Below are positions 15,855 through 57,537 of a stretch of 64,000 bases of DNA, piece by piece. Under the pieces are notes generated by a model. The model saw only the letters and a program-made list of their open reading frames with translations. It ran no database searches and was not told the origin of the DNA. The stretch lies in the NCBI GenBank assembly GCA_022510405.1, contig JAFLTP010000008.1:1-64000 (forward strand). The letters are read 5' to 3'. The DNA comes from Muribaculaceae bacterium (lineage in GTDB: Bacteria > Bacteroidota > Bacteroidia > Bacteroidales > Muribaculaceae). The position numbers and the translations under genes were made by a program. The number at the start of each line of letters is the position of its first letter. Within the stretch, counting starts at the first letter, position 1.

Positions 15855-15889
15855 AAAGTTTAAAGTTAAAAGTTAAAAGTTTAGAGGTT
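15855..15889. repeat. Heptamer array between purA and guaB
   Basis: Five units in 7-bp phase on the + strand: AAAGTTT, AAAGTTA, AAAGTTA, AAAGTTT, AGAGGTT. On the guaB mRNA strand it reads CTTTAAA-like and lacks G. It ends 19 bp from the guaB start. Confidence 0.8.
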
Positions 15890-15936
15890 GAAAACAGCCA
15901 TGGAGTGGTTATACATCTATGGTCAATCGTGTGAGT

Positions 15937-17232
15937 TTAGAAATTTTTGAGGTAGTCGGAGACGAGGATGGTCTGGGAGCGGTCAGGACCTACAGAAATC
16001 ACACCAACCAGTACCCCTGTAATCTCTTCTATTTTTTTGACATAATTCTTGGCATTTTCGGGCAATTCCTCATATGTTTTCATATTTGAGATATCTTCTG
16101 TCCAACCCGGGAGTTCCACATAAACCGGTTTACATCTTGAGAGTTTGGAAATTGTTGAAGGTGGAGTATCCACTATCTTACCATCCAATTCATAATGGGT
16201 ACAAATTTTTACAGTTTCCATTCCTGAGAGGACATCGAAAAGCATAAGGGCCCAATGATTGATACCGGCCAACTGACTTGTGTAACGAGCTACAACACCA
16301 TCAAACCAACCAATACGGCGAGGACGACCTGTTACAGTGCCATATTCATGGCCTCTTTCTCGGATCTCATGGGCCAAATTATCGAAAAGTTCCGTGGGAA
16401 AAGGTCCTTCTCCTACACGTGTACAATAGGCTTTGGCCACGCCCAGAACGTTGTCGATCCAATGGGGTGCGATACCAGCACCTACCGGCACACTGGCAGC
16501 CGAAGGAGTCGAAGAGGTGACAAAAGGATATGTGCCATGGTCGATACAAAGCATCATGCCCTGAGCACCTTCGAAAAGTATTTTCTTGCCATCTTCTCTA
16601 AGTGCTTTATTGATGATGGCTGAGGTATCTACAATTCTTGGACCGAGTAATTCAGCCAATTCCATGAATCTCTTATAGACCTTTTGATAATCATAAGCTT
16701 GGAGACCAAGCATCTCAAGTTCTTTGTTTTTGATTATCATAGCGTCCTTCAGACGTTCTGCAAAATAATCAGGTTCCAAGAGGTCGCCCATCCTTAAGCC
16801 GCTACGGCTATATTTATCGCAATATGCCGGCCCGATCCCTTTTTTTGTAGTTCCAATAAGTTTTTTGCCTTTTCCAGCTTCATAAGCACCATCGAGGTCA
16901 GCATGCCATGGCATCACCATGGCTGCACGGTCGGAAATATAAAGTTGGAAATTTGTGATGCCTTGGTCACGTAGTTTTTGAAGTTCAAGAACCACCGATT
17001 CCGGATTCACCACCATTCCATTGCCCATAATGTTAATAGTGTCAGGATTAAATATACCTGACGGGATGCTCTGCAGGGAATATTTTTTCCCATTGAACAT
17101 CACGGAGTGACCGGCATTGTTGCCGCCCTGATATCTGACCACCATATCGGCGCGGCATGCGAAATAATCAGTGATTTTACCTTTACCTTCGTCTCCCCAT
17201 TGAGAGCCGATAACAACAAGTCTGTCAGACAT
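15937..17232 (-). CDS. purA: Adenylosuccinate synthetase
   Basis: Joins IMP and aspartate with GTP to form adenylosuccinate, the first step towards AMP. At 431 residues it has normal length. The N-terminal GSQWGDEGKGKITD loop binds GTP/IMP. YQGGNNAGHS (His near 41) and the C-terminal NKxD-like GTP site region (GVISVGPDRSQTI) are present, and TPSAASVPVGAGIAPHW is a family block. Its ATG overlaps the purB stop by one base (TAATG), so the lyase and synthetase are translationally coupled. Confidence 0.97.
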   Translation of the reverse strand: MSDRLVVIGSQWGDEGKGKITDYFACRADMVVRYQGGNNAGHSVMFNGKKYSLQSIPSGIFNPDTINIMGNGMVVNPESVVLELQKLRDQGITNFQLYISDRAAMVMPWHADLDGAYEAGKGKKLIGTTKKGIGPAYCDKYSRSGLRMGDLLEPDYFAERLKDAMIIKNKELEMLGLQAYDYQKVYKRFMELAELLGPRIVDTSAIINKALREDGKKILFEGAQGMMLCIDHGTYPFVTSSTPSAASVPVGAGIAPHWIDNVLGVAKAYCTRVGEGPFPTELFDNLAHEIRERGHEYGTVTGRPRRIGWFDGVVARYTSQLAGINHWALMLFDVLSGMETVKICTHYELDGKIVDTPPSTISKLSRCKPVYVELPGWTEDISNMKTYEELPENAKNYVKKIEEITGVLVGVISVGPDRSQTILVSDYLKNF

Positions 17233-18530
17233 TATGCTTCTAAATTATTACGTTTGTAAATATGATCTATGTTTTTGAAATAATAGTCAAGGGTGAAACA
17301 GGCATCAAGTTCCTCCGGAGTTAGAGTTCCCATTACCGTTTCATCCTGCTTGAGCAGATCTTGATAAGGTTTCCCTTCCTGCATGGCCCTCATTGCAATA
17401 GGTTGAACCGTGTCATATGCTTTCTCGCGTGCGAAACCTTTGTCAATAAGCGCATTCATAACCCTTTGAGCAAAGATCACCCCATTGGTGCGGTAAATGT
17501 TTGCGAGCATTTGATCTTCAAACACCACGATATTTTCCAAGATGCCCTTCATTCGATTGAGCATATAATCGAGAAGGATTGTGGCGTCGGGCATTATTAT
17601 ACGTTCTGTGGCTGAATGAGAGATATCTCTTTCATGCCATAGAGCCACGTTTTCATAAGCCGTCTGCATATATCCTCTAAGAACACGGGCGCAACCGCAA
17701 ATATTTTCGCTGCTCACCGGATTGCGCTTATGAGGCATTGCCGAAGAACCTTTCTGTCCTTTACCGAACGACTCTTCTACTTCGTGGACTTCAGTACGTT
17801 GAAGGTTGCGGACTTCAAGTGCCATCTGTTCGAGGGATGCTCCTATAAGAGCCAGAGTAGCCATGTAATAAGCATGGCGGTCACGTTGAATCACCTGAGT
17901 GCTGATATCGGCTGACGCTATTCCAAGTTTTTCACAAACGAAATCCTGTACAAACGGAGGAATATTGGCGAAATTACCTACCGCGCCGCTAATTTTACCA
18001 ACCTCAACACCTTTGGCTGCTTCATTGAAACGATGCAGATTACGTTTCATTTCGGCCAACCATAGCACCCATTTAAGACCAAAGGAAGTGATATCAGCAT
18101 GGATACCGTGGGTTCTGCCGATACAGGGTTGGTTTTTAAATCTTACTGCCTGTTTTGCAAGCATATCAATGAATTCCTCGATATCTTTACGAAGGATTTC
18201 ATCTGCCTGTTTGAAAAGATAACCATTGGCAGTGTCAACCACGTCTGTAGATGTCAAACCATAGTGTACCCATTTTCTTTCTTCCCCAAGAGATTCGCTT
18301 ACAGTTCTTGTGAAAGCCACTATATCATGCCTGGTCTGAAGTTCTATTTCCTTAATTCTTTCTATATCGAACTTCGCATTTTTCTTAAGTTTTTCAACAT
18401 CTTGTGGAGGAACCACACCAAGTTCCATCCAGGCTTCAGCAGCCAATATTTCGACTTTCAGATAAGCATTGAATTTATTTTCTTCAGTCCAAACCTGACG
18501 CATCACATCACGTCCGTATCTTTCAATCAT
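17232..18530 (-). CDS. purB: Adenylosuccinate lyase
   Basis: Acts twice in purine synthesis, splitting fumarate from SAICAR and from adenylosuccinate. The 432-residue product carries the fumarase/aspartase superfamily signature GSSAMPHKRNPVSSE near residues 260-275, and the catalytic-site blocks TSTDVVDTA and GRTHGIHA. The start fits the family (MIERYGRDVM). It is preceded by an AAC-rich tract and coupled to purA downstream. Its place between folD and purA in the purine operon agrees with the assignment. Confidence 0.97.
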   Translation of the reverse strand: MIERYGRDVMRQVWTEENKFNAYLKVEILAAEAWMELGVVPPQDVEKLKKNAKFDIERIKEIELQTRHDIVAFTRTVSESLGEERKWVHYGLTSTDVVDTANGYLFKQADEILRKDIEEFIDMLAKQAVRFKNQPCIGRTHGIHADITSFGLKWVLWLAEMKRNLHRFNEAAKGVEVGKISGAVGNFANIPPFVQDFVCEKLGIASADISTQVIQRDRHAYYMATLALIGASLEQMALEVRNLQRTEVHEVEESFGKGQKGSSAMPHKRNPVSSENICGCARVLRGYMQTAYENVALWHERDISHSATERIIMPDATILLDYMLNRMKGILENIVVFEDQMLANIYRTNGVIFAQRVMNALIDKGFAREKAYDTVQPIAMRAMQEGKPYQDLLKQDETVMGTLTPEELDACFTLDYYFKNIDHIYKRNNLEA

Positions 18531-18540
18531 TGGTTTATAG

Positions 18541-18592
18541 TTGTTAGGGTTATTATAGTTTTGGTGTTGTTATTGTTATTTCTGTTGTTGAT
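18541..18592 (-). repeat. AAC-rich tract between folD and purB, extending into the folD 3' end
   Basis: On the mRNA strand this is CAACAACAGAAATAACAATAACAACACC-like, G-poor sequence. It starts inside folD, where it encodes the HQQQK tail and the stop codon, and runs almost to the purB ATG. Confidence 0.7.
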
Positions 18593-19436
18593 GCATTTTA
18601 TTTAGGAAGCATTCGAGAGTATTTTCCATAAGACAAGCACGCGTCATAGGTCCCACTCCGCCCGGTACGGGAGTTATAACGGAAGCTATTTCCGCACAAG
18701 AATCAAAATCCACATCACCGCATAGTTTACCGGAATCGGGATCTCTGTTAACCCCGACGTCAATTACGGCAGCTCCCGGTTTTACCATATCGGCAGTAAC
18801 AAATTTTGGTCTACCTATAGCCACAACCAATATATCGGCATGCGAAGTAACTTCCGGAAGATTCAGTGACCTGCTGTGAGCTATTGTTACTGTGGCGTTT
18901 CTATCTAGAAGCAACTTTGAAACAGGCAAACCGACAATATTGCTACGACCGATTACGACAGCCTTTTTACCTTCGATCTCCACTCCGGCTTTATCAAGCA
19001 ATTTTATGATTCCTTTAGGAGTGCAAGGATAAATGCAAGGACGTTTCTGCCATAGAGCCGCTACGTTTGCGGGATGAAAACCGTCGACATCTTTTGATTT
19101 GTCGATGGTTTCTATAACCTTGTCTTCGTCTATATGCTTTGGTAGGGGAAGCTGAACTAAAATACCATCCACATCTTCATCAGCATTGAGCTCATGAATA
19201 AGATTCAGAAGCTCTTTTTCGGAGATTGTATCGGGTTTACGGATGGTGGTGCTTTTAAATCCCACTTCTTCAGCATCCTTACCTTTACCCTTCACATAGG
19301 ATTGGCTTGCGGGGTCTTCCCCTACGAGAATCACCACAAGATGCGGGGGACGACCAAATTCTTTAATTGCTTCGGCAACTTTTCCTTTAACGTTTTCTTT
19401 TATCTCTTTGGCTAATTGAGTACCGCTTATGGTCAT
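18576..19436 (-). CDS. folD: Bifunctional methylenetetrahydrofolate dehydrogenase / methenyl-THF cyclohydrolase
   Basis: Interconverts 5,10-methylene-THF and 10-formyl-THF, the formyl donor for PurN and PurH encoded in the same operon. I start it at MTISGTQLAKEI, giving 286 residues and the normal N-terminus. A longer frame begins at an ATGA overlap with purD, but its 21 extra residues are coded by leader and repeat-like sequence. YVKGKGKDAEEVG contains the catalytic Lys, VQLPLPKHI and the Rossmann block VVIGRSNIVGLP are typical, and PVPGGVGPMT is the family signature. The C-terminal HQQQK tail is coded by the start of an AAC tract. Confidence 0.95.
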   Translation of the reverse strand: MTISGTQLAKEIKENVKGKVAEAIKEFGRPPHLVVILVGEDPASQSYVKGKGKDAEEVGFKSTTIRKPDTISEKELLNLIHELNADEDVDGILVQLPLPKHIDEDKVIETIDKSKDVDGFHPANVAALWQKRPCIYPCTPKGIIKLLDKAGVEIEGKKAVVIGRSNIVGLPVSKLLLDRNATVTIAHSRSLNLPEVTSHADILVVAIGRPKFVTADMVKPGAAVIDVGVNRDPDSGKLCGDVDFDSCAEIASVITPVPGGVGPMTRACLMENTLECFLNKMHQQQK

Positions 19437-19449
19437 GATAGATGTTTGA

Positions 19450-19470
19450 GTTTTAAGTTTAGAATTGTCA
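19450..19470. repeat. Short heptamer array upstream of folD
   Basis: Three phased units on the + strand, GTTTTAA, GTTTAGA and ATTGTCA, lie between the purD stop and the chosen folD ATG. They are the same GTTNNRA type as the other arrays but degraded. Confidence 0.5.
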
Positions 19471-19495
19471 GCACTTACAATTGCACCATACAATT

Positions 19496-20743
19496 TCATA
19501 GGATTGCTTTACCGATATCAGTGCGATGGAACAAAGCAGGACATTCGATAGAAGTAATTTCTTTTTTCACATTCATGTTGGCGGCCGGAAGGTCATCACC
19601 ATGGGCAGTCACCATAAGTACCCGGCCACCAGCCACGTGATACTTCCCATCTTTCAATTCTGTACCCATATGGAAGACTTCACCATTGACAACTTCCAAT
19701 CCTTTGATTTCAGCACCCTTTTCATAAGAACCGGGATATCCCTTTGAGGCGAGTACCACCCCGATCACAGCATCGTGGCTCCATTGAGGGATGAAATCAA
19801 CACCATCTATTGCAGCATTGAAGAAATCATAAATATCTGATTCAAGACGAGGGAGAACAACTTCAGTTTCAGGGTCACCGAAGCGAGCGTTGAATTCTAT
19901 AACTTTGGGTCCATCTTCAGTTAGAATCAAACCCCCATAAAGGACACCACAGAAAGGAAATCCTTCTTCAACAAGCGCTTTAGCAGTGGGAATCATTATG
20001 TCATTCAGAGCCTTGTCGTGCATTTCGGGAGAAACGAACGGCACTGGAGAATATGCACCCATACCGCCAGTATTTGGACCCTTGTCGCCGTCGTATGCCC
20101 TTTTATGGTCTTGTGCAAGTTCCAGGGGATAGACTTTATCTCCTGAAACAAAACACATGAAAGAGAATTCCGGACCTTGCAGGAATTCCTCAATTATGAC
20201 TTTATCAGAACCGAATTTAAGGTCACGAAGCATATCAGAAAGAGCCTTTTCGGCCTCATCAAAATTTTGAGCCACGACCACACCTTTTCCTGCAGCGAGC
20301 CCATCATATTTGATAACTGTAGGGAAAGAACCTTTTTTTACATAATCAAAGGCTTCACCGTAATTAGAGAAGGTTTCATATTTGGCTGTAGGAATATTAT
20401 ATTTCACCATCAATTTTTTGGCAAATTCCTTGCTGCTTTCTATCTGGGCCGCTTCTTTCGTGGGACCAAAAACTTTAAGTCCGCAACTTTGCATAGCATC
20501 AGATAGACCGGCAACCAAAGCAGCCTCAGGTCCTATTACCGTAAGGTCGATATCATTACGCTGAGCAAAATTTATGATGCCTTCCACGTCTTCAACCTTT
20601 AGATTGACACATTCGGCATCGTTAGCTATACCGGCGTTACCCGGTGCGCAAAATATTTTATCCACTTTAGGAGATTTGGCAAGAGATTTTACTATAGCGT
20701 GTTCTCTACCTCCACTTCCTACGACTAAAACTTTCTTTCCCAT
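19496..20743 (-). CDS. purD: Phosphoribosylamine-glycine ligase
   Basis: ATP-dependent formation of GAR, the second step of purine synthesis. The ATG start gives MGKKVLVVGSGGREHA and 415 residues; a TTG two codons upstream is not needed. The ATP-grasp core is visible in KYDGLAAGKGVVVA and YPLELAQDHKRA, with GPNTGGMGAYSPVP and FNARFGDPETEVVLP as family blocks near residues 215 and 285. It follows purH by 18 bp and overlaps the long folD frame by ATGA. The product's dependence on formyl-THF in the next step fits with folD downstream. Confidence 0.97.
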   Translation of the reverse strand: MGKKVLVVGSGGREHAIVKSLAKSPKVDKIFCAPGNAGIANDAECVNLKVEDVEGIINFAQRNDIDLTVIGPEAALVAGLSDAMQSCGLKVFGPTKEAAQIESSKEFAKKLMVKYNIPTAKYETFSNYGEAFDYVKKGSFPTVIKYDGLAAGKGVVVAQNFDEAEKALSDMLRDLKFGSDKVIIEEFLQGPEFSFMCFVSGDKVYPLELAQDHKRAYDGDKGPNTGGMGAYSPVPFVSPEMHDKALNDIMIPTAKALVEEGFPFCGVLYGGLILTEDGPKVIEFNARFGDPETEVVLPRLESDIYDFFNAAIDGVDFIPQWSHDAVIGVVLASKGYPGSYEKGAEIKGLEVVNGEVFHMGTELKDGKYHVAGGRVLMVTAHGDDLPAANMNVKKEITSIECPALFHRTDIGKAIL

Positions 20744-20745
20744 AC

Positions 20746-20774
20746 TCAATGTTTGAAAGGATCAATGTTTGAAA
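20746..20774. repeat. 13-bp direct repeat at the purH-purD junction
   Basis: TCAATGTTTGAAA occurs at 20746-20758 and again at 20762-20774, offset 16 bp. The second copy holds the last codons and stop of purH; the first is a duplicate lying between the purH stop and the purD start. Confidence 0.8.
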
Positions 20775-22291
20775 TGACGCATACCGGTGAACAGCATAGT
20801 GATACCTTTTTCGTCGGCTACTTTAATAGAATCTTCGTCACGAATGCTTCCTCCCGGTTGAACGATTGCAGTCACACCATATTTGGAAGCCAATTCCACG
20901 GTATCGCCAAATGGCAGGAACCCGTCGGAAGCAAGTACCAAACCATCCGTAATTCCCAAAGCCTTAGCTTCGTTAAGTGCGATTTCAGCAGAACCTACGC
21001 GGTTCATTTGACCGGCACCTACACCGGCAGTTGCACCATCCTTGGCAACGACTATTGCATTGCTCTTTACATGTTTCACAATTTTCCAGGCGAAATTCAT
21101 TTCCTGCAGTTCTTTATCTGTCGGTTTTCGCTTGGTGACACACATTTCGGGTGTCAATTCGAGGCATTGAAGGTCGGCATCCTGAACAAGCATACCACCA
21201 TTTATACCCACATAAGCCTTGCAAGGATTTTTTTCCGGAGACATATTGACCTCAAGAACACGAAGATTTTTCTTGGATGCGAGCACTTCCAGCGCATCAG
21301 GTTCATAAGCCGGAGCCATGATGATTTCAAGGAAAATTGGTTTCATGAGCAAGGCCACCTCTTTAGTGAGAGGACGGTTGATAGCGACAATACCACCATA
21401 AATACTAACCTTGTCGGCTTCATAAGCCTTAGTCCAAGCTTGGAGAAGATCCTTACCTTCACCGGCACCGCAAGGGTTCATATGTTTGAGTGCCACACAG
21501 AAAGGAGATTCAAATTCCCTTACAATACTTAAAGCCGCATTGGCATCCTGGATATTGTTGTAACTCAGCTCCTTACCCTGCAATTGTTTTGAGAATGCCA
21601 CTGAGAAAGGAGTTTCCTTGGCACTTCGATAGAAAGAGGCGGATTGGTGAGGATTTTCGCCATATCTCAATGACTGGACTTCATCGAAAGAAAGGAATAA
21701 TTTTTCAGGAAGTCCTGCAGCCTTTCTCATAAATTCCGCAATCTTTGAATCATAGAGAGCAGTGTGAGTGTAAGCCTTGGCTGAAAGTTTAAGGCGAGTC
21801 TCATATTGGGTGTTGCCATTCAAAGTGATTTCTTCAATCACGGTGGGATAATCCTCGGGGTCGCAAACCACTGTGACATCCCTGAAATTTTTTGCGGCAC
21901 TGCGAAGCATGGAAGGACCCCCTATATCGATGTTTTCGATAGCATCTTCCATTGTGACATCGGGTTTAGCAATGGTTGCTTCGAAGGGATATAGGTTTAC
22001 GCAAACCAGGTCTATGGGAGTTATTCCGTTTTCGGCTATTTGAGCCATATGATCGTCGCTATCACGACGTGCGAGTAGACCTCCATGCACCTTGGGATGA
22101 AGTGTCTTTACACGACCTTCGCAAATTTCCGGAAAGCCGGTCACATCCTGAATATCCATCACTTCAAGTCCGGCATTTCTAAGGGTTTTGAGAGTGCCGG
22201 AAGTAGAGATGAGGGTCCAACCGAGATTTTTCAACGCTTTTGCGAAATCAACGATTCCTTTTTTGTCGCTTACGCTTATGAGTGCACGCAT
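20762..22291 (-). CDS. purH: Bifunctional AICAR formyltransferase / IMP cyclohydrolase
   Basis: Carries out the last two steps to IMP using 10-formyl-THF. The 509-residue protein has an N-terminal MGS-like cyclohydrolase domain (RALISVSDKKGIVDFAKAL, SGTLKTLRNAG, ICEGRVKTLHPKVHGGLLARR). The C-terminal formyltransferase has LRYGENPHQSASFY near residue 205 and the catalytic KHMNPCGAG segment near 265-273. It is about the usual length. The leader is a heptamer array and the gene follows purN by 40 bp, as part of the purine operon. Confidence 0.97.
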   Translation of the reverse strand: MRALISVSDKKGIVDFAKALKNLGWTLISTSGTLKTLRNAGLEVMDIQDVTGFPEICEGRVKTLHPKVHGGLLARRDSDDHMAQIAENGITPIDLVCVNLYPFEATIAKPDVTMEDAIENIDIGGPSMLRSAAKNFRDVTVVCDPEDYPTVIEEITLNGNTQYETRLKLSAKAYTHTALYDSKIAEFMRKAAGLPEKLFLSFDEVQSLRYGENPHQSASFYRSAKETPFSVAFSKQLQGKELSYNNIQDANAALSIVREFESPFCVALKHMNPCGAGEGKDLLQAWTKAYEADKVSIYGGIVAINRPLTKEVALLMKPIFLEIIMAPAYEPDALEVLASKKNLRVLEVNMSPEKNPCKAYVGINGGMLVQDADLQCLELTPEMCVTKRKPTDKELQEMNFAWKIVKHVKSNAIVVAKDGATAGVGAGQMNRVGSAEIALNEAKALGITDGLVLASDGFLPFGDTVELASKYGVTAIVQPGGSIRDEDSIKVADEKGITMLFTGMRHFKH

Positions 22292-22303
22292 TGGTGATAT
22301 TTT

Positions 22304-22331
22304 AAAGTTTAAAGTTTAAAGTTTAGAGATA
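22304..22331. repeat. Heptamer array between purN and purH
   Basis: Three perfect tandem AAAGTTT units and a diverged AGAGATA on the + strand fill the gap, ending next to the purN stop codon. The mRNA strand reads CTTTAAA repeats and is G-free up to the purH leader. Confidence 0.85.
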
Positions 22332-22901: not shown

Positions 22902-22914
22902 TTTTTGACTGAGA

Positions 22915-23940: not shown

Positions 23941-23946
23941 TGTGGG

Positions 23947-23985
23947 TAAATTGTTAGTGTTGTTGGTGCGTTATTGTTTTTGTTG
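23947..23985 (-). repeat. AAC-rich tract between purL and purM, extending into the purL 3' end
   Basis: The mRNA strand reads AAACAACAAAAACAATAAC followed by GCACCAACAACACTAAC, nearly free of G. The first part encodes the KQQKQ tail and stop of PurL; the rest is the purM leader. Confidence 0.7.
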
Positions 23986-27684: not shown

Positions 27685-27686
27685 GA

Positions 27687-27719
27687 GTTGAGTTGTGAGT
27701 TGTAAGTTTAGAGGTTTAG
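27687..27719. repeat. Heptamer array between purE and purL
   Basis: On the + strand GTTGTGA, GTTGTAA, GTTTAGA and GGTTTAG lie in 7-bp phase from 27692, next to the purL start. It joins the TCACAAC-type and AAACTTT-type versions in one array, which suggests they are variants of one unit. Confidence 0.7.
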
Positions 27720-28531: not shown

Positions 28532-28825
28532 TCAGATGGTTTGGGTGATGGGCCAGACGAAGGCACGTAGACCGAGGCGTGGTTTTGATTCGTCAAGGTC
28601 TTTTAGCTTTTGAAGGAGGGTTTCCACTTTGGCGTCTTCGACTATCGTCAGGATAGCACTTCCGAGCGATGGCCACGCATGGGTGCCGAAATGGGGGTCG
28701 CCTGTTTTGCTTCCTTTGCCTTGGGTTTCACCAAAGGAGGTGAAACCGCGGCATGAACTTTTTTCAAGGATATCGAGGATAGCTTCATTGTGTGCCTGGT
28801 CGAAGGCTATGAATATTGCTTGCAT
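28532..28825 (-). CDS. Small PII-like protein linked to an RND efflux pump
   Basis: A 97-residue cytoplasmic protein (MQAIFIAFDQAHNEAILDIL...). Length, the beta-alpha-beta pattern and the final beta strand (LGLRAFVWPI) suggest a ferredoxin-like fold of the PII/CutA/DUF3240 sort. The region between GFTSF and HAWPSLGSAILTIV resembles the T-loop position of GlnB-type proteins. It lies 33 bp after the RND pump gene and shares its transcript up to the terminator. DUF3240 proteins accompany some metal RND pumps, so a regulatory role is plausible. Fold assignment by eye only; function unknown. Confidence 0.65.
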   Translation of the reverse strand: MQAIFIAFDQAHNEAILDILEKSSCRGFTSFGETQGKGSKTGDPHFGTHAWPSLGSAILTIVEDAKVETLLQKLKDLDESKPRLGLRAFVWPITQTI

Positions 28826-28836: not shown

Positions 28837-28864
28837 ATTGTGAATCGTAAGTTGTGAGTTAAGA
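28837..28864. repeat. Degraded heptamer array between the RND pump and the PII-like gene
   Basis: Phased units on the + strand are ATTGTGA, ATCGTAA, GTTGTGA and GTTAAGA. It lies 11 bp from the PII-like start and touches the RND stop region. Confidence 0.55.
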
Positions 28865-31989: not shown

Positions 31990-32024
31990 GTTGTAAGTTG
32001 GGGGTTGTGAGTTGTAAGTTAGAG
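31990..32024. repeat. Heptamer array between the RND adaptor and pump genes
   Basis: Five phased units on the + strand: GTTGTAA, GTTGGGG, GTTGTGA, GTTGTAA, GTTAGAG. The mRNA strand reads TTACAAC/TCACAAC. The array almost fills the 53-bp gap. Confidence 0.75.
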
Positions 32025-47390: not shown

Positions 47391-47396
47391 ACCATA

Positions 47397-47492: not shown

Positions 47493-48839
47493 ATGAACGT
47501 AGAGTTTAAAAAACTTGACAATGTCAATGGTGAATTGACAATCACTTTGGAGGAGAAAGATTATGCCGACAAAGTAAAGAAACAGTTGAAGGAAATAGGT
47601 AAGAATCGTCCGGAACCGGGTTTCCGTGCCGGTCATGTGCCTATGGGGCTCCTCGAAAAAAAATATGGAACAGCCGTTAAATATGAAGTGGTTAACCGTG
47701 AAATCGTTGACTCTGTTTACGACTATATAAAAGACAATAAACTTCGTGTCCTCGGACAACCCGTGCCTGACAAAGATAACGAATTGAAAGACGGAGAAAC
47801 AGAATTCACTTTTAAATTCAAAGTTGGTCTGGCTCCCGAACTCGATGTCAAGATCGGTAAGGATATGAAAATACCTTACTACACCATCGCAGTGACCGAC
47901 GAAATGGTGGATCAGGAAATAACTGCACTTCGCAAGAGATTTGGTGTTCAAGGTCCGGGCGAAGAAACAGAACCGGATGCTGTAATTAAAGGTGTGATCA
48001 GCGAGCTTAATCCTGACGGAAGCGTGAAGGAAGACGGTATTGTGGTTGACAACGGAATCCTGGCACCGGTTCACTTCACAAGCGAAGAACAAAAGAAACT
48101 CTTTGAGGGTAAACACCCGGGTGATGTTGTAGTGTTCAATCCTGCTGCTTCATGCAACAGTAATGTCACTGAAATGTCATCAATGCTCAACATTGATAAG
48201 AGCGATGTTGAGAACCATAAGGGTGATTTCAATTTTGAAATCAAAGAAATTATAGTATTGAAACCTGCAGACCTTGACCAGGAATTCTTCGACAATGCTG
48301 TAGGTAAAGACAAAGCACACAATGAAGAGGAGCTTAAAGCTGCTGTGAAAGATCTCATCAAGGATCAATTGAAAGCAGAGTCTGATTTCCGTTTTTCAAT
48401 CGATGCAAGAAATGTGGTTGAAAAATCTTTGGGTAATGTTCAACTTCCCGAAGAGGTGCTCAAACATTTCTTGATGCAACAGAATCAACAACTCACTGCC
48501 GAGAATATTGATGAGGAATTCGTTAAGATTCGTCCTCAATTGGTTTGGGACCTTACCAAGGATGATATCGTTGCCAAATTCAATATAGAGGTTACTAACG
48601 ATGACTTGATGAATGAGGCTCGTGTTGCTGTATATCGTCAATTGAGCCAATATGGTCCGGCCTCACTTACTGAAGGTGTTATAGAACATTATGCCCAGGA
48701 AGTCATGAAGGATCCGAAAAACCATGATGCCTTTGAAAGAAATGCACTCAACAAGAAAGTGTTCGAAACCATCAAGGAAAATGTGACTCTTGACAATAAA
48801 GAACTCTCTATCGAAGACTTCAGGAAATTATATGCCTGA
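47493..48839 (+). CDS. tig: Trigger factor (ribosome-associated chaperone)
   Basis: A 448-residue chaperone that meets nascent chains at the ribosome exit. The N-terminal ribosome-binding domain carries the signature region KNRPEPGFRAGHVPMGLLEKKYG near 39-61. A central FKBP-like PPIase domain lies at about 150-250, and the rest is the helical C-terminal domain with its two arms. In Bacteroidetes the ribosome-contact loop reads GFRAGHVP rather than GFRxGKxP, a small family difference. The gene has its own promoter and terminator and precedes clpP and clpX, a common bacterial order. Confidence 0.93.
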   Translation: MNVEFKKLDNVNGELTITLEEKDYADKVKKQLKEIGKNRPEPGFRAGHVPMGLLEKKYGTAVKYEVVNREIVDSVYDYIKDNKLRVLGQPVPDKDNELKDGETEFTFKFKVGLAPELDVKIGKDMKIPYYTIAVTDEMVDQEITALRKRFGVQGPGEETEPDAVIKGVISELNPDGSVKEDGIVVDNGILAPVHFTSEEQKKLFEGKHPGDVVVFNPAASCNSNVTEMSSMLNIDKSDVENHKGDFNFEIKEIIVLKPADLDQEFFDNAVGKDKAHNEEELKAAVKDLIKDQLKAESDFRFSIDARNVVEKSLGNVQLPEEVLKHFLMQQNQQLTAENIDEEFVKIRPQLVWDLTKDDIVAKFNIEVTNDDLMNEARVAVYRQLSQYGPASLTEGVIEHYAQEVMKDPKNHDAFERNALNKKVFETIKENVTLDNKELSIEDFRKLYA

Positions 48840-48842
48840 GTT

Positions 48843-48870
48843 AGAATTTAAAGATTAGAGTTTAAAGTTA
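48843..48870. repeat. Heptamer array after the trigger factor gene
   Basis: Four phased units on the + strand, AGAATTT, AAAGATT, AGAGTTT and AAAGTTA, begin 4 bp past the stop codon. Confidence 0.65.
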
Positions 48871-48964
48871 AAATAAGAATAGAGGTAGGTGATTTCAATT
48901 TCTATTTAGGAATCTTACACATAATTCCTGGTTCCTTCTGAAATTGGGATAACCACACAATAAA
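48871..48964. other. Intergenic region between tig and clpP, first part
   Basis: AT-rich sequence without an open frame; nothing recognised. The remaining 117 bases after the terminator form the clpP leader, which has a TTAATTTG element (one mismatch to TAnnTTTG) near 49040 and a small GAAGCT/AGCTTC hairpin near 49071-49089. Confidence 0.4.
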
Positions 48965-49851: not shown

Positions 49852-49854
49852 GGT

Positions 49855-51099
49855 ATGGCAACAAACCGTTCGGGTCTTGTATGTTCGATGTGCGGAACTC
49901 ACGACAGTTCCGCAAATCCTGTTGTCAAGGTGCTTGAGGGTCTCAATTTATGTACAGACTGCATTGCATATATCGACAATGCACGCGACACCCAATTGAA
50001 ACGTCAGCCGGCAAAAGCAAAAAATAAAAAAGAGGGCAACAAGATACCCAAGCCAAAGGAGATAAAAGAATTTTTGGATAAGTATGTAATCGGACAAGAC
50101 GAAGCCAAGAAATATCTCTCGGTAGCTGTCTATAACCATTACAAGCGAATCAATCAATCTGACGATGACGAGGTAGATATTGAAAAGTCGAACATTATAC
50201 TCGTTGGCCCCACCGGAACGGGTAAGACGCTTCTTGCCAAAACTATAGCCAGACTTCTTGATGTGCCGTTCACCATTGTGGATGCTACCGTACTCACTGA
50301 AGCCGGATATGTAGGTGAGGACATTGAGTCTCTTTTGACCCGTTTGCTGCAGACTTGCGACTATGACGTCGAGAAAGCCGAAAGAGGTATAGTCTTTATA
50401 GACGAGATTGACAAGATAGCCCGTAAGTCGGATAATCCATCCATCACCCGTGATGTGAGCGGAGAGGGTGTTCAACAGGGTCTTTTAAAACTTCTGGAAG
50501 GTTCTGTGGTGCTCGTTCCACCAAATGGAGGCAGAAAACATCCGGAGCAGAAAATGATTGCGGTGAACACCAAAAACATTCTTTTCATCTGCGGAGGTGC
50601 ATTTGATGGAATCGAGAGGAAGATCGCTTCAAGGTTAAACACTCATGTTGTCGGATATGGTCACGATGAGTCCGGAAGGAAGAAAAAGCGTGAGAACCTA
50701 ATGAAATATGTACTCCCGATGGATTTGAAATCATTTGGGTTGATTCCTGAAATTATCGGTAGGTTACCTATCCTGACAAGTCTTGATCCACTTGACAGGG
50801 AAGCTTTGAGAAGAATCTTGACAGAACCCAAGAATTCCATAATAGGTCAATATAAGAAATTGTTTGAACTTGACGGAGTGAAATTGGAATTCACGGAAGA
50901 GGCTCTTGATTTGATTGTTGATAAAGCTATCGAATATAAATTGGGAGCCAGAGGACTACGTTCAATTGTGGAAACCATCATGGTGGATTCCATGTTTGAA
51001 GTTCCGTCATTAAAAAAGAAAGAATTCAAGATTGACGTGGATTATGTGAAGGAACAACTCGAAAGGGCACATTTTGAGAAAACTTCCATTAAGGATTAA
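49855..51099 (+). CDS. clpX: ATP-dependent Clp protease ATP-binding subunit ClpX
   Basis: AAA+ unfoldase that feeds substrates to ClpP. The 414-residue protein has an N-terminal C4 zinc finger (Cys10, 13, 33, 36) for substrate and adaptor binding. Walker A GPTGTGKT is at 118-125, Walker B in VFIDEID near 180, and the sensor and pore regions ([15 protein letters not shown]) are visible. The IGF-like ClpP-binding loop is in the [14 protein letters not shown] region, though the exact tripeptide differs from E. coli. Its stop codon is part of the first unit of a heptamer array. Confidence 0.96.
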
Positions 51100-51132
51100 A
51101 GTTTAAAGATTAAAGATAAAAGTTTAAAGTGG
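51098..51132. repeat. Heptamer array starting in the clpX stop codon
   Basis: Five phased units on the + strand: AAAGTTT, AAAGATT, AAAGATA, AAAGTTT, AAAGTGG. The first two A's belong to the TAA stop codon of clpX and the last unit forms the foot of the terminator stem. Confidence 0.85.
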
Positions 51133-51176: not shown

Positions 51177-51228
51177 TATATAAATTCACAATTTACCACA
51201 CATAACTCATAACTTTAATCACAGCCTC

Positions 51229-51260
51229 TTTGCAATTTCAAATATTATTTTATAACTTTG
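51229..51260 (+). promoter_or_regulatory. Promoter of recQ
   Basis: TTTG (51229-51232), a 20-base spacer, then TAACTTTG (51253-51260). Both elements match the Bacteroidetes consensus; the leader to the ATG is about 30 bases. Confidence 0.8.
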
Positions 51261-51295
51261 TCTATAATCTCTTTTCATTCCTCTATACATTCTCC

Positions 51296-53473: not shown

Positions 53474-53479
53474 GAGAGG

Positions 53480-53542
53480 AAAGTTTAAAGTTTAAAGTTT
53501 AAAGTGTAAAGTTGAAAGTTTAAAGTTAAAAGATTAAAGAAG
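53480..53542. repeat. Heptamer array, AAAGTTT type, nine units
   Basis: Nine consecutive units in exact 7-bp phase on the + strand: AAAGTTT three times, then AAAGTGT, AAAGTTG, AAAGTTT, AAAGTTA, AAAGATT, AAAGAAG. It begins 7 bp after the recQ stop. Confidence 0.9.
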
Positions 53543-53566
53543 TTACTTATATTTCACAATATACAG

Positions 53567-53636
53567 CTCACAACTCGAGACTCACAACTCGAGACTCACA
53601 ACTTACAACTTACAACTCACCGCTCATGACTCACAA
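53567..53636. repeat. Heptamer array, CTCACAA type, ten units
   Basis: Ten consecutive phased units on the + strand: CTCACAA and CTCGAGA alternating twice, CTCACAA, CTTACAA twice, CTCACCG, CTCATGA, CTCACAA. It lies 24 bp after the AAAGTTT array and 78 bp before the first chaperone gene. The reverse complement is the GTTGTRA unit seen elsewhere in the window. Confidence 0.9.
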
Positions 53637-53714
53637 CTCCCACATAAAACTTGCAGTTCAAAAAATAAAGACGGGGGTAAATGAGTTAATAAATAAAGGA
53701 AAACTTTTTTAGAA

Positions 53715-55196
53715 ATGAAATTGAATGAAATAAAGAATAAAGGTGGAAAGGCTGTGATAGCCGCCATGATACTCTCAACAGGTATAACCGCCTTGAATGC
53801 AAAAGAGAACAAAGGAGTGATTATGACAGTGGATGGCGAGGAAGTCCCCACCTCCGAATTCCTTTATTTATTCCACAAGAACAATAGTCAACAGGTTGAG
53901 CCTCAAACTATGGACGAATATTTGGATCTCTTCCAAGTATATAGACTTAAAGTAGCGGAGGCTAAACAAGAAGGGATTGACACCACTGCCAATTTCAAAA
54001 AAGAGGTGGCGCAGTATAGAAGGGAATTGCTTGAACCCTATATCACCGACACGGCGTTTATCAATTCACTTGTGGACCTCGCTATGGAAAGAGAGAAAGT
54101 GGCGGTTGAATCAAGCCACATCATGTTTATACGCACCCACAATGAAGAAAAGGATAAAAGGAGTCTTGAATTGATCGACAGTCTTCGTCAGGAACTCTTG
54201 AATGGTGCGGATTTTATTGAATTAGCTAAAAAATACTCAGAGGATAAGTTCTCAGCGGATAAAGGGGGTTATCTTGGATTCACATTAGCCGGGACTTTCC
54301 CTTATGGATTTGAAACAGCCGAATATGACACTCCGGAAGGAGAAATTTCTGATATTGTGGAATCTCATGTAGGATGGCACATTGTCAAATCCGGTGCAAG
54401 AAAACCTGCTGAAGAATTTAATCACCCTGCGAGATCATATGATGAGATAAAAGCTGATGTGCTTAGGAAGTCCGCTTCGCCATTCGATACACGCTTTTTT
54501 GAGATCCGTAGAAAAAATATGGAAAATCTTAAAAAGAAACATCCTAAAATGTTGGCAGCAATAGAGAATTTGCCGGAAGATGAGGCTTATGAGGTTTTGT
54601 TAGTGGAAGAAGAGATCGCGCAATATGCTTCCAATCCGGATTACCATAATCTCGTTGATGAATATACCAATGGAAGTTTGCTGTATGAGGTTAGCGTAAA
54701 GAATGTATGGGACAAAGCATCTAACGATGAAGAGGGTCTGAATAATTATTACGTTGCCAATAGAGGGAAATATACCTGGGATGCTCCTCATGCCAAAGGA
54801 ATTCTGGTTCAGGCTGTGAATGATTCTGTAGCGGATGTGATAAAGGCGAATATCGGAGGAATGTCGCCCGATGAAACGGTTAAATATATTAGAACCAATT
54901 TCAAGAAGGAAGCCACGGCCGACAAATTCAATATGGCCAAAGGTGCTAATCCAATGGTTGACCATTTGATGTTTGGTGAGGCGGAAACTACTCCTAAAAT
55001 TAAAAGTTTCAAAACCTATTTTATTGTTGACGGTAGAATTGTTGAATCTCCCGAAGAACTAAACGATGTAAAGAGTTTGGTAGTTTCCGATTATCAGGAA
55101 CAACTTGAATCCGACTGGGTTAATTCCTTGCGAAGTAAGCATACTGTTGAAATAAATCAAAAGGAACTGAAAAACATACGCAAATCCTTGAAATAA
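53715..55196 (+). CDS. Periplasmic peptidyl-prolyl isomerase (parvulin/SurA-like)
   Basis: A 493-residue exported protein. The N-terminus has a signal peptide (about 1-29, ending ALNAKE). A SurA-N-like helical region with GEEVPTSEFLYLFHKN precedes one parvulin domain at about 132-235 (ESSHIMFIRTH, FIELAKKYSEDKFSADKGGYLGF, GWHIVKSG). A long C-terminal part (about 240-493) has no motif that I recognise. It probably chaperones outer-membrane proteins. It starts a run of genes leading to OstA and mutL. Confidence 0.87.
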   Translation: MKLNEIKNKGGKAVIAAMILSTGITALNAKENKGVIMTVDGEEVPTSEFLYLFHKNNSQQVEPQTMDEYLDLFQVYRLKVAEAKQEGIDTTANFKKEVAQYRRELLEPYITDTAFINSLVDLAMEREKVAVESSHIMFIRTHNEEKDKRSLELIDSLRQELLNGADFIELAKKYSEDKFSADKGGYLGFTLAGTFPYGFETAEYDTPEGEISDIVESHVGWHIVKSGARKPAEEFNHPARSYDEIKADVLRKSASPFDTRFFEIRRKNMENLKKKHPKMLAAIENLPEDEAYEVLLVEEEIAQYASNPDYHNLVDEYTNGSLLYEVSVKNVWDKASNDEEGLNNYYVANRGKYTWDAPHAKGILVQAVNDSVADVIKANIGGMSPDETVKYIRTNFKKEATADKFNMAKGANPMVDHLMFGEAETTPKIKSFKTYFIVDGRIVESPEELNDVKSLVVSDYQEQLESDWVNSLRSKHTVEINQKELKNIRKSLK

Positions 55197-55201
55197 AATC
55201 T

Positions 55202-56089
55202 TTGAAACCCTTACTTCGGATATCAATCGGTGTAATGTTTTTGGTCTGCTTTTTTTCTTGTGGAAAGAAGGTAGACCGAAATGATATTGTATTGCTACGG
55301 TATGGGGAACAGGAATTGACCTATAATGAGGTATTGTCTCAAATACCCGATGGTATAGCGCCACTTGATTCAGCTGCTCTTTTCAACAGCATTGTGGAGG
55401 GATGGCTCAAGGATGTATTGCTCTCCGAATTTGCCGAAGAACGTCTTTATGATATCCACACAATAGATCGACGTGTGAAAGATTATCGAAACAGCCTCAT
55501 TGTTTCGGAGTATCTCAGCAGAATGAGGGAAGCCCACAAACCCAATGTGGATGAGATAATGGTGAAGGATTATTACGATAAACATAGAAAGGAACTTAAA
55601 CTCGATGTGCCATTGGTGAAAGGTGTATTCCTGAAAATAGATTCCGATTCAAAAGGAAAGGAGAATATTAAAAATCTACTCTCATCAGAAAATCCCGAAG
55701 AAATCGACAGATTGGAAAGGGAATGGCTCGACCGGGCCTTGGAATACAATTATTTCCGCGACAAGTGGATAGATTGGGAAACTGTGGCCGGATGGATACC
55801 TCATAGATTCGGTAATGCTGACGAGTTTATAAAAAATAAGAAATATTTCGAAATCGACTACGGAGAAAACTCTTATTATCTTCAAATCACGGATTATCTT
55901 CCCTCCGGCGAGGAACAACCATATGAGTTTGCATCTTCTTGGATAACGAATCTATTGACTCAGGGAGATCTGATGGATTTTGAAAAGTCTCTTGTGGAGT
56001 CAATTGTAATGAAATCTATACAAGACAACAAACTTGAGGCGGTGAGTTATAATCCGATAACACATGAAGTGAAAAATACTTTACGATAA
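55202..56089 (+). CDS. SurA N-domain-like lipoprotein without parvulin domain
   Basis: A 295-residue protein with a TTG start 5 bp after the previous stop. The only nearby ATG (residue 12) would remove the basic n-region of the signal peptide. The lipobox CFFSC puts the lipidated Cys at residue 20. The following part (LRYGEQELTYNEVLSQIPDG) resembles the first helix pair of SurA-type chaperones and the middle has KDYYDKHRKELKLD, as in parvulin N-domains, but no complete PPIase domain follows. It is probably a membrane-tethered chaperone helper. Function inferred from form and neighbours. Confidence 0.72.
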   Translation: MKPLLRISIGVMFLVCFFSCGKKVDRNDIVLLRYGEQELTYNEVLSQIPDGIAPLDSAALFNSIVEGWLKDVLLSEFAEERLYDIHTIDRRVKDYRNSLIVSEYLSRMREAHKPNVDEIMVKDYYDKHRKELKLDVPLVKGVFLKIDSDSKGKENIKNLLSSENPEEIDRLEREWLDRALEYNYFRDKWIDWETVAGWIPHRFGNADEFIKNKKYFEIDYGENSYYLQITDYLPSGEEQPYEFASSWITNLLTQGDLMDFEKSLVESIVMKSIQDNKLEAVSYNPITHEVKNTLR

Positions 56090-56097
56090 GTTGAAAG

Positions 56098-57483
56098 ATG
56101 AAAAATAAAAGAAATAAAATTTTAAAGAGGTTTGCAGTTCCTGTTGCTCTATTGTTGGCAGTTTTGCCCTTGATGAGTCAGAATGATAAGAATGTTGTCG
56201 ACGAAGTGGCTTGGATAGTGGGTGACGAAGCCATATTCCGTTCTGATATAGAAGAACAATACCAACAAATGAGATCTGAAGGAATTTCTATTCAGGGAGA
56301 TCCCTATGCCGTGATACCGGAACAAATAGCCGTTGAGAAGTTATACCTTCATCAAGCAAAGATAGACACTATCGAAGTGCCGGAATCAAGTGTGAGAAGT
56401 ATGGTTGACCAACGAATCAATTTCTTCATCAACCAGTTGGGATCGAAAGAAAAAGTGGAGGAATATTTCCATAAGTCATTGCCGGTGCTTCGTGAAAGTT
56501 TAGTTGAAATGATGAAGAATAATTCCATCGTGTCGCAAGTGCAGAGAAATCTCACCGATGGAGTTACTGCCACTCCTAACGAGGTCAGGAAATATTTCGA
56601 CACAATGCCGGCCGACAGTATTCCTTATGTGCCGATGCAGGTGGAAGTACAAATAATTACTCTCAATCCCAACATTCCAAGACAGGAGATTGAAGATGTG
56701 AAGGCAAGATTAAGGGAATATTCCGACCGTGTAAACAAAGGAGAGGTGGATTTCTCAACTTTGGCTTTCATGTATAGCGAAGACGGAAGTGCAATGCAAG
56801 GAGGAGAACTCGGTTTCAGCGGTAGGGCCGGTTGGGTTCCGGAATTTGCCAACGTGGCATTCAATCTCACGGATCCCAAGAAAGTGTCACGTATAGTTGA
56901 GACTGAATATGGCTACCATATCATCCAGTTGATAGCAAAAAGAGGTGATCAGGTGAATGTTCGACATATTCTTCTCACTCCGAAGGTTAGCCAAAAGGAT
57001 TTGACAGACGCCACCAACCGACTTGATTCCATCAGAAAAGAAATTGTAGGCGGTGCTTTCTCATTTGAAGAGGCTGCATCCTATATATCTCAGGATAAGG
57101 ACACACGTAACAATAAAGGTGTGATGACCAACAACAATGATTACAGCAACCTTTATCGCAGCAGTAAGTTCGAAATGCAAGACCTACCAACAGAGATTGC
57201 AAAACAGGTGGAGAAGATGAACCCCGGCGATATCAGCGAGGCTTTCATAATGAAAAACAACAATCATAAAGATGTGGCTGCCATAGTGAAACTCACCGAA
57301 AGAATTCCGGGCCATCGTGCCAATCTTTCCGACGATTACAACCTTCTGAAAAAAATGTATGAGAATCACAAGAAAGATGAGATACTCAGAGAATGGCTCG
57401 AAAAGAAGATAAAGGAGACCTATGTCAAGATTGAACCCGGTTGGCAAAGTGATGAGTTCAAGTATCAAGGGTGGATTAAGTAA
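56098..57483 (+). CDS. Periplasmic chaperone SurA-like, two parvulin domains
   Basis: A 461-residue exported protein. A signal peptide (about 1-27) is followed by a SurA-like N-terminal domain (VVDEVAWIVGDEAIFRSDIEEQY). The first parvulin domain lies at about 180-285 (VEVQIITLNPNIPRQEIEDV; GELGFSGRAGWVPEFANVAF; YGYHIIQLIAKRGD). A second, more diverged one lies at about 285-400 (VNVRHILLTPKVSQKDLTDA). This is the usual SurA layout, so transport of outer-membrane proteins across the periplasm is the probable role. The stop codon adjoins a heptamer array that leads into the ostA-like gene. Confidence 0.88.
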   Translation: MKNKRNKILKRFAVPVALLLAVLPLMSQNDKNVVDEVAWIVGDEAIFRSDIEEQYQQMRSEGISIQGDPYAVIPEQIAVEKLYLHQAKIDTIEVPESSVRSMVDQRINFFINQLGSKEKVEEYFHKSLPVLRESLVEMMKNNSIVSQVQRNLTDGVTATPNEVRKYFDTMPADSIPYVPMQVEVQIITLNPNIPRQEIEDVKARLREYSDRVNKGEVDFSTLAFMYSEDGSAMQGGELGFSGRAGWVPEFANVAFNLTDPKKVSRIVETEYGYHIIQLIAKRGDQVNVRHILLTPKVSQKDLTDATNRLDSIRKEIVGGAFSFEEAASYISQDKDTRNNKGVMTNNNDYSNLYRSSKFEMQDLPTEIAKQVEKMNPGDISEAFIMKNNNHKDVAAIVKLTERIPGHRANLSDDYNLLKKMYENHKKDEILREWLEKKIKETYVKIEPGWQSDEFKYQGWIK

Positions 57484-57537
57484 AGTTTAAAGTTTAGAGT
57501 TGAAAGTTTAAAGTTTAAAGTTTAGAGTTTAGAGTGA
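57482..57537. repeat. Heptamer array spanning the surA-ostA junction
   Basis: Eight phased units on the + strand: AAAGTTT twice, AGAGTTG, AAAGTTT three times, AGAGTTT, AGAGTGA. The first two A's belong to the TAA stop of the surA-like gene. The last unit contains the GTG start of the ostA-like gene. Confidence 0.9.

Follow-up and report, generated by a model that had tools for sequence, protein, structure and literature searches.

Heptamer repeats have been described in several bacterial groups, and the close parallels to the arrays reported here are the GGGAATC heptamers of Xanthomonas and Nostoc (PMC4692102) and the TAACTGA repeats of Beggiatoaceae (PMC4679880). In the accessible parts of the first account, the units (GGGAATC / GGGANTN and GGGGA(C/T)T) are suspected quadruplex formers that lie antisense less than 50 bp before starts and sense less than 50 bp after stops, overlapping the stops; in xanthomonads they are nearer the 5' ORF (28 versus 160 nt on average), and 16% of heptamer repeats fall in convergent gaps. 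A preference for four units also marks this kind. TAACTGA direct repeats are reported, in the corresponding parts of the second, from Beggiatoaceae, cyanobacteria and five Bacteroidetes. For long simple sequence repeats with heptamer units in prokaryotes (Mrazek 2007, as relayed in PMC4679880 and PMC4692102) period 7 is favoured and slippage has been proposed, as it has for the period-7 repeat (GATAGRA)n of Chloroflexus (PMC6749651); as far as the available portions of these last two accounts go, they include neither gene-edge polarity nor Bacteroidales. A search of the open-licence PMC literature found no published account of GTTNNRA heptamers in Bacteroidales.

Here, we analyse such heptamers in a Muribaculaceae genome, starting from a window of 64,000 nucleotides in which a sequence-only reading had noticed phased GTTNNRA units and known of no named family like them. 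For the kind of repeat, that statement fails. Like the Xanthomonas/Nostoc heptamers, as far as these are described in PMC4692102, GTTNNRA arrays have fixed and free positions, are intergenic, prefer aligned ORFs with divergent ones rare, show polarity to start and stop edges, lie nearer the 5' ORF, overlap stops, form convergent pairs, use both strands about equally, and differ in length and sequence between relatives at the same genes. Unlike them, they are AT-rich and almost without C and G-tracts, have two subtypes by edge, and leave convergent gaps unused in this genome. TAACTGA repeats, in the available description (PMC4679880), are likewise intergenic heptamers with many sets per genome and a patchy spread across phyla, and in BOGUAY most of them sit immediately before starts, oriented like the AAC strand here, TGATAAC being a rotation of the unit. 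They have one favoured unit, whereas GTTNNRA arrays are degenerate; their reverse strand rotates to GTTATCA, which violates the R at position 6 of GTTNNRA, and TAACTGA pairs are absent from both strands of the 703.5 kb sampled here. The polarity rule is thus already described, in the parts of PMC4692102 at hand, for unrelated bacteria; what is new is its occurrence in quite different AT-rich sequence.

Abundance and polarity of the arrays

Across the genome, (GTTNNRA)x4 has 239 overlapping matches (125 forward, 114 reverse), compared with 0 + 3 for the reversed motif that served as the control in genome-wide pattern scans. Finer analysis used 703.5 kb of the 3.02 Mb, weighted towards contigs among the (GTTNNRA)x4 matches listed, with gene calls from a home-made caller whose stops are exact and whose starts are uncertain; array scans fixed columns 1-3 and 7, plus A or G at column 6. 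The gaps of this sample hold 62 runs of at least three strict units, against a mean of 2.1 and a maximum of 5 in 30 dinucleotide shuffles. Tandem 7-bp units thus occur genome-wide, far above shuffled sequence and mainly between genes, which bears out the sequence-only reading's dispersed family concentrated in gene junctions; its further claim, that no array is found deep within a gene, is true of the 78 of 82 arrays that are in gaps, and not of the four that lie mostly in called coding sequence. Strict runs fall steadily in number from two to five units (51, 27, 18 and 6), the longest reach 16, 13, 12 and 10 units, and extended arrays, which have a minimum of three units, most commonly have four (20/78).

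The proposed siting in spacers between cistrons also stands. Among gaps of at least 20 bp, 50 of the 52 that bear arrays are co-directional and two are divergent, whereas 222/309 of the others are co-directional (Fisher p = 4e-5), the same preference for aligned ORFs that marks the Xanthomonas/Nostoc kind. Arrays are present in 50/272 co-directional gaps of this size and in 0/36 convergent gaps of the own-genome sample; in outside genera convergent gaps do carry them (10/32 arrays), and 21/32 lie at stops.

The GTT strand mostly starts next to a gene and heads away from that gene, irrespective of the gene's own direction. This is a better rule than the '+ strand' preference noted earlier, which is local and disappears in the genome-wide balance of strands. 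A replication-linked signal, also suggested then, is not supported, because the strands are balanced genome-wide, contigs are mixed, and the arms face each other in 12/12 gaps that hold both orientations. The 5' end is nearer a gene in 58/73 arrays (medians 7 and 82 bp), after nine of the 82 were dropped (four mostly coding, three without a neighbour on one side, two lying over 400 bp away from either gene). Of the arrays that have 60 bp or more to spare, 42/51 fit and nine run contrary, the 5' end lying within 15 bp of a gene in 28 and the 3' end in none; the ten of 73 whose 3' end does come that close are all in tight gaps. Since arrays in one gap are not independent (six lie in C2:30482-30783), we also scored a single array from each gap: in 43/52 gaps its 5' end is the one closer to a gene, and where there is room 28/31 fit, with the 5' end within 15 bp in 20/31 and the 3' end in 0/31. 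Outside the genus 26/32 arrays fit, from eight genomes chosen for their matches, seven of which yielded usable arrays. GTTNNRA arrays are therefore antisense near starts and sense near stops, as in the Xanthomonas/Nostoc kind. After stops, 14/26 arrays are in phase with the stop codon against 1/7 expected (p = 3e-6), the in-phase positions having been defined only after the sequences had been seen.

Unit types and their replacement among relatives

The main unit types first listed all fit GTTNNRA and the array at 27692 mixes types A and B, in keeping with the single family first proposed; that family nevertheless has two subtypes with different edge preference, GTTKARA favouring stop edges and GTTDTRA start edges (A/B type by edge, p = 0.008). 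Column 6 of B units is 36 A and 13 G after stops versus 61 A and 77 G before starts (p = 5e-4), and transcript sense matters to unit choice. The AAC strand is the mRNA sense for 267/496 units in co-directional gaps, and ATG, GTG or TTG occurs in 259/528 units on the GTT strand versus 7/528 on the AAC strand. Stop-bearing units are equally common after stops (215/229) and before starts (246/267), so stops are not selected by sense, and a role as stop-codon insurance is not supported. GGG occurs in 14/528 units, and four such tracts, counted in sequence only, in 1/78 arrays, so that the G-tracts of a quadruplex former are very largely lacking here; the GGGATAA and GGGTTTA units of some relatives do have them.

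Columns 4 and 6 account for most of the variation in long strict runs and in B arrays. Chains in the column analysis were built from strict units (111/120 internal B units), so the fixed columns are partly imposed, and the unbiased facts are the split of column 4 without C, the A/G split of column 6 and the long strict runs themselves. Neighbouring units are identical at a rate of 0.233 versus 0.202 in shuffles, a level attained by 10/500 shuffles. Unit strings repeated between loci number 75 versus 51 in shuffles for three units and 15 versus 8.5 for four (shuffle maximum 16); strings of five and six units are not above shuffles, and copying between loci was rejected. Array gaps share 53 13-mers in 48 gaps, compared with 1.4 in shuffles of the non-array parts, not a like-for-like baseline, since the 13-mers could include as many as 5 array bases; the remaining co-directional gaps likewise surpass their shuffles (359 vs 120 in 199 gaps).

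We compared 21 relatives of the same genus, one genome per species, five of them (G022, G053, G012, G050, G072) chosen partly for pattern matches and the rest by purL similarity. Lag 7 is significant in 26/149 orthologous co-directional gaps (29 with more shuffles) and other lags from 4 to 13 in 1 to 9/149: period 7, not a single motif, is the common property of these gaps. Gaps orthologous to array gaps often hold other heptamers in these genomes, for example GGGATAA-like units in G008, and the closest relative, at 78-80% DNA identity, has only 5 four-unit matches and two different units. We draw no conclusion from the reversed control of the pattern scan of relatives, which is itself match-rich in a few genomes (for example G050, with 44). 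Some relatives' units before starts contain G (CGATTAA, GGAAAAC), so freedom from G at that edge is not general. Of 24 genus members, only 9 have a positive GC skew on the sense strand after stops. GTTDTRA arrays recur patchily in 53/393 genomes and 42/207 genera of the order; we draw no conclusion from the reversed control of that scan, which is unclean because AGTTTTG is a rotation of GTTTTGA. The pattern is patchy within the family too, since (GTTDTRA)x3 was found in 0/5 other genera (one genome each).

Possible origins and roles

We tentatively favour a reading in which slippage gives rise to the arrays at the ends of genes and selection then acts on them as part of the transcribed spacer between co-directional genes, and would give it not quite an even chance. 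Replication slippage or short tandem duplication would copy a seven-base block at a gene edge, period 7 having been reported, in the parts of PMC4679880 and PMC4692102 that relay it, as a favoured length for such events in many bacteria. After stops the copied block would often include the stop codon itself, which would put the array in phase with it. Selection at the mRNA level may then determine the strand retained at each edge. Ahead of a start codon this would be a sense strand that is nearly G-free (TYAHAAC) and hence has scarcely any ATG, GTG or TTG; behind a stop, it would be one that is nearly C-free (GTTKARA). Arrays would be rewritten over time, the edge being kept while the unit changes between species, a step that the orthologous gaps partly document. 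The effect might mainly be a tolerated unstructured spacer, perhaps aiding re-initiation in a phylum with little Shine-Dalgarno use. In favour of the scheme we count the common period of 7, the polarity to gene edges here and outside the genus, the inward-facing arms, the co-directional siting, the stop codons in phase, the dependence of unit choice on sense, the near absence of start codons from the AAC strand, and the published heptamers that follow the rule as well (PMC4692102). Several findings weigh against parts of this scheme. Fresh slippage predicts like neighbours, and neighbouring units are only slightly alike; a slipped array decaying neutrally would not be expected to vary mainly at columns 4 and 6, so concerted exchange or unit selection must be added; and a stop-edge origin does not account for the empty convergent gaps of this genome, though in outside genera such gaps do hold arrays. 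The similar share of stop-bearing units in both senses, the nine arrays contrary to polarity and the ten with a close 3' end, the GC skew among genus members and the G-containing units of some relatives before starts count against it as well.

Multi-copy sites of one sequence-specific protein, whether RNA-binding (for example an RRM protein of Bacteroidota) or DNA-binding, could also explain why the unit changes by species, if protein and site co-evolve. The variation of B arrays at columns 4 and 6 (the other columns being partly fixed by the scan), the patchy recurrence of GTTDTRA in the order and the conserved edges with replaced units would all suit such a protein. We nonetheless think it unlikely: the consensus is present in both transcript senses, so that a protein binding RNA could not recognise it, although unit frequencies differ by sense; no regulon is evident among the 10 window genes scanned next to arrays, which belong to purine synthesis and efflux or are clpX, recQ and SurA-like genes; and the closest relative has so few matches and different units. 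Translation offers another role, since Bacteroidetes are, according to the available part of PMC6847099, naturally without Shine-Dalgarno sequences. Nearly G-free TYAHAAC tracts before starts might act as unstructured ribosome landing sites, with after-stop arrays as a by-product: the AAC strand is the mRNA for over half the units in co-directional gaps and almost lacks start codons, and single-arm gaps are less structured (median z -0.49, n=30) than other co-directional gaps (-1.25, n=50; 20 shuffles each). Translation standby, as first suggested, may likewise apply to the arrays before starts. Such an aid is rather improbable as an account of the arrays, however, given that arrays following stops are almost as frequent and favour a unit of their own, that arrays outside the genus are mostly at stops, and that fewer than a fifth of co-directional gaps carry any.

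REP/BIME elements combine a palindromic unit that is conserved with a RAYT transposase encoded next to copies of it, and two facing arms around a palindromic centre could make these arrays a hairpin or a mobile element of that sort. The inward-facing arms of all two-armed gaps, a centre, TTAAAGAAGTTACT, found exactly at 4 places, the folding of 10 two-armed gaps (median z -2.6, 6 below -2) and one strong and two weak Y1_Tnp genes in the genome are consistent with this. Yet the 30 single-arm gaps fold no better than shuffles, so that a uniform hairpin is unsupported for them; an A arm is paired with a B arm in 9/12 two-armed gaps, by reading of the sequences; and the centre, once one mismatch is allowed, shows no excess over its reversed control (9 vs 15). 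We regard such an element as very unlikely. Templated repeat addition, in which a telomerase-like reverse transcriptase would extend 3' ends at breaks between genes, is extremely improbable, even though it would fit GTT strands whose 3' direction points away from the gene on either side, the phase match with the stop codon, the nearly random order of units and their species specificity, and has a precedent in the enzymes of the DRT10 defence system, which produce short tandem-repeat cDNA (PMC12632851, in its accessible part). RVT_1 (PF00078) has no match in this genome, which is 92% complete and the array-richest of 61 searched, and RVT_1 genes occur in 6/12 genomes with array matches and 19/49 without, showing no association.

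It is decidedly doubtful that in Bacteroidales, Xanthomonas, Nostoc and Beggiatoaceae, which span unrelated phyla, heptamer arrays all grow outward from the ends of genes by a single process indifferent to sequence, with the unit drifting or swapping by species. The strand reading away would then be lengthened starting at the gene edge, its first unit frequently being the stop codon, and only secondary parts would fall to quadruplexes, to any one binding protein and to the direction of transcription. As published, the polarity rule concerns heptamers suspected of forming quadruplexes and is, in the part of PMC4692102 concerned, discussed in structural terms. Polarity in units nearly without G-tracts, together with a different unit in a sister species' gap, makes the rule separable from one sequence and raises a testable general question: why bacterial seven-base repeats respect gene beginnings and ends.

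Arrays of the window

Eight of the sites first listed hold phased GTTNNRA units (Table 1). The array beside clpX, identified with Tandem Repeats Finder and from the sequence, is too degenerate for the strict-unit scan, and the 28837 site falls under its three-unit cut.

Table 1. Heptamer and related arrays in the window, with the orthologous gaps of the same-genus relative G008
Position	Strand	Array	Context	G008 gap
3507..3611	+	Related 9-bp-period array TTGTTGTTA	Complementary AAC-rich strand reads into start of ORF 2813-3493	
4900..5031	+	Related 9-bp-period array TGTTTTTAG	Before start of ORF 3641-4897, polarity as 3507..3611	
15851..15892	+	A-type (GTTTAAA/GTTAAAA/GTTTAGA), 6 units	Reads away from guaB start (guaB 14364-15836, -)	
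19443..19463	+	Short array TGTTTGA GTTTTAA GTTTAGA	Within called 5' end of ORF 18576-19499	
22300..22327	+	A-type, 4 units	Occupies most of 40-bp purH/purN gap	
27692..27712	+	Two B units and one A unit	Gap before purL start	GGGATAA-like units
28837..28864	+	Degenerate, two strict units (28851-28864)	Before start of ORF 28532-28825; last unit overlaps stop of next gene	
31990..32024	+	B-type, 5 units	Before RND permease gene start	GGGATAA-like units
48846..48873	+	A-type	After TGA stop of ORF 47493-48839 (+)	Lag 7 not significant
51096..51130	+	Degenerate A-type	Overlaps clpX stop (TAA 51097-51099), in phase	Similar A-type array
53483..53538	+	A-type, 8 units	After recQ stop	Gap of 55 bp, neither this array nor the next present
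53568..53616	-	B-type, 7 units (GTTGTRA with GTCTCGA)	Faces 53483..53538 across centre AAAGAAGTTACTTA	As above
57485..57533	+	A-type, 7 units	In phase with TAA stop of SurA-like gene	GGGATAA-like units at matching place
62550..62599	-	Related 9-bp-period array	AACAATAAC strand reads into start of ORF 62600-63184 (in ORF list, not a gene by the home-made caller)	

The exception among the listed sites is 19450. Its units fall within a called ORF, some 36-56 bp away from where that ORF is called to start; were the in-frame ATG at 19436 the true start, this array would be left in the gap before the gene.

Abundance and placement of the arrays

The GTTNNRA repeats are real. The sequence-only reading had proposed a dispersed family of 7-bp units lying in phase at gene junctions, and it is borne out both against shuffled gaps and across the genome. 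We inspected the sequence at the sites named in that reading and sampled 703.5 kb of the 3.02-Mb draft genome, the window (contig 72) included; gene calling on this sample gave 529 genes and left 74.4 kb as gaps. Its gaps hold 62 runs of at least three strict units, against a mean of 2.1 and a maximum of 5 in 30 dinucleotide shuffles. Four-unit matches, overlaps counted, total 239 genome-wide, and a reversed control gives 3. By placement, 61 runs of at least three units in the sample are intergenic, two mixed and two coding. Co-directional genes flank 50 of the 52 gaps with arrays, versus 222 of 309 gaps without them, and period-7 autocorrelation in this genome is +4.4 points in co-directional gaps, +0.8 in divergent and -0.9 in convergent ones. 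Since some arrays are found close to or at the end of a contig (in the relatives' contigs G053:C51, G053:C161, G022:C155 and G014:C182), draft genomes may undercount them; in this genome, a stretch of N falls within an array gap on contig C2.

Polarity and unit anatomy

Polarity was scored for 73 of the 82 sample arrays, leaving out four that are mostly coding, three with a neighbouring gene on one side only and two more than 400 bp from both genes. In 58 of these 73 the GTT strand has its 5' end closer to a gene than its 3' end, with median distances of 7 bp and 82 bp, and within 15 bp of a gene we count 49 5' ends and 10 3' ends. The rule holds where arrays have 60 bp or more to spare (42 of 51; 28 versus 0 within 15 bp) and when one array is taken per gap (43 of 52, or 28 of 31 with room; 20 versus 0 within 15 bp). 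Nine of the 15 contrary arrays have room and six lie in tight gaps, among them C13:16648, which is plainly opposite. In gaps with arrays on both strands the arms face inward in 12 of 12. The centre between the arms is short and in many cases palindromic, and one such centre is present at four places. Read in mRNA sense, the arrays appear as GTTNNRA after stops and as TYNNAAC before starts.

The units are of two kinds, subtype A with the consensus GTTKARA and subtype B with GTTDTRA. In the arrays that obey the polarity rule, A predominates at stop edges (20 of 28) and B at start edges (19 of 29; p = 0.008). In 120 units inside B arrays, column 4 is G in 66, T in 46, A in 8 and C in none, and column 6 is A in 63, G in 55 and T in 2; the remaining columns are 96-100% fixed, in part because the array-finding criteria impose this. 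Adjacent units are nearly independent (0.233 identical versus 0.202 when shuffled, a value reached by 10 of 500 shuffles), and B units two apart are identical at 0.261 versus 0.189 (reached by 1 of 500).

Distribution among relatives

The closest relative, G008, is 78-80% identical in DNA over 6.5 kb and retains several array edges, often with a different unit: GGGATAA-like before purL, before an RND permease and after a SurA-like gene, GTTTAAA-like at guaB and clpX. Self-similarity at lag 7 is significant there in five of eight orthologous counterparts of our array gaps, and also in gaps 29 and 47, where it is not significant in this genome. The closest named ClpX matches are Bacteroidales metagenome genomes at 81% identity, in one search that may have left out near-identical records. 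Across the orthologous gaps of 21 relatives, lag 7 is significant in 26 of 149 (29 in a first pass, which used more shuffles), and other lags from 4 to 13 in 1 to 9; units there include CGATTAA, ACGATAA, GGAAAAC, GGCTCAA and CTTAACN. Four-unit GTTNNRA matches occur in 11 of 60 other same-genus genomes (at most 23, in G022), and 11 of 15 arrays in nine same-genus relatives agree in polarity. Of 24 genus members, 22 have a negative sense GC skew before starts and only 9 a positive one after stops; over 80 loci of other Bacteroidales and kin, pre-start skew is -0.03 and the lag-7 peak is absent.

(GTTDTRA)x3 occurs in 53 of 393 genomes of the order, this one counted, and in 42 of 207 genera. Stretches from eight bearers outside the genus yielded arrays in seven; all 32 of these arrays lie in gaps. 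In 26 of them a gene is closer to the 5' end than to the 3' end (16 versus 3 within 15 bp). Stops are favoured here (21 of 32), and 10 of the 32 lie in convergent gaps.

In G022 (L206) and G099 (L203), a core near AATCAGGATTAATC / AATCCCGATTAATC is common to the gaps at junctions 12 and 17 and sits between heptamer arms, an arrangement that resembles a composite element in dispersed copies. In G072 (L200), the gaps at junctions 9 and 13 combine a G-rich arm after the stop with a C-rich arm before the start; their units are of GAGCT and GGCTCAA type, and such a gap could form a long hairpin.

Possible origin, precedent and other repeats

Among arrays following a stop within 25 bp, 14 of 26 have the stop codon in array phase, and this, with the period-7 preference, would fit an origin in which slippage, or duplication of short blocks, acts at the ends of genes. 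The chief fact that such an account leaves over is the near-random unit order with mostly fixed columns, for which a further process would have to be added, either arrays exchanging units or selection acting on the unit itself. Transcript sense matters, as is shown indirectly by the subtype and the A/G choice in B column 6, both of which differ by edge. Start codons fall within 7 of 528 units on the AAC strand and 259 of 528 on the GTT strand, so before genuine starts it is the strand free of false ones that is found. As explanations, hairpins, stop-codon insurance and templated repeat addition each proved weak when tested, as did, in an indirect test, the replication signal raised by the sequence-only reading.

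This kind of repeat is already known. The GGGAATC heptamers that Rehm and colleagues described in Xanthomonas and Nostoc, without being able to assign them a function (PMC4692102), match most features here, among them degenerate positions, the rule on distance to genes, overlap with stops and pairs that face each other. MacGregor reported TAACTGA sets before starts (PMC4679880). As far as literature searches show, what is new is an AT-rich unit almost without G-tracts, the division into stop and start subtypes, the swapping of units between sister species while the gene edge stays the same, and a patchy distribution across Bacteroidales; GGG-bearing units in some relatives (GGGATAA, in 8 of 111 genomes) count against a clean separation from quadruplexes.

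Other repeats and a transposase gene noted in addition to the heptamers
Feature	Location
Period ~9 arrays or array-like gaps (TGTTNTTRN)	window 3507-3611, 4900-5031, 18531-18575, 23941-23970, 62550-62599
Distinct short repeat, ACTACTAGACTACAAGACTAC (gap starts, contigs of this genome)	C1:30997, C6:66514, C7:6052, C9:62637
Y1_Tnp (RAYT-type) transposase gene, strong match	G000:C23:72202-72540

The period ~9 arrays have the same polarity, their AAC-rich strand running into the start codon, and lag 9 ranks top in the samples of two same-genus relatives, G053 and G050. The distinct short repeat is common to four gaps that lack heptamer arrays, and two weaker Y1_Tnp matches lie elsewhere.
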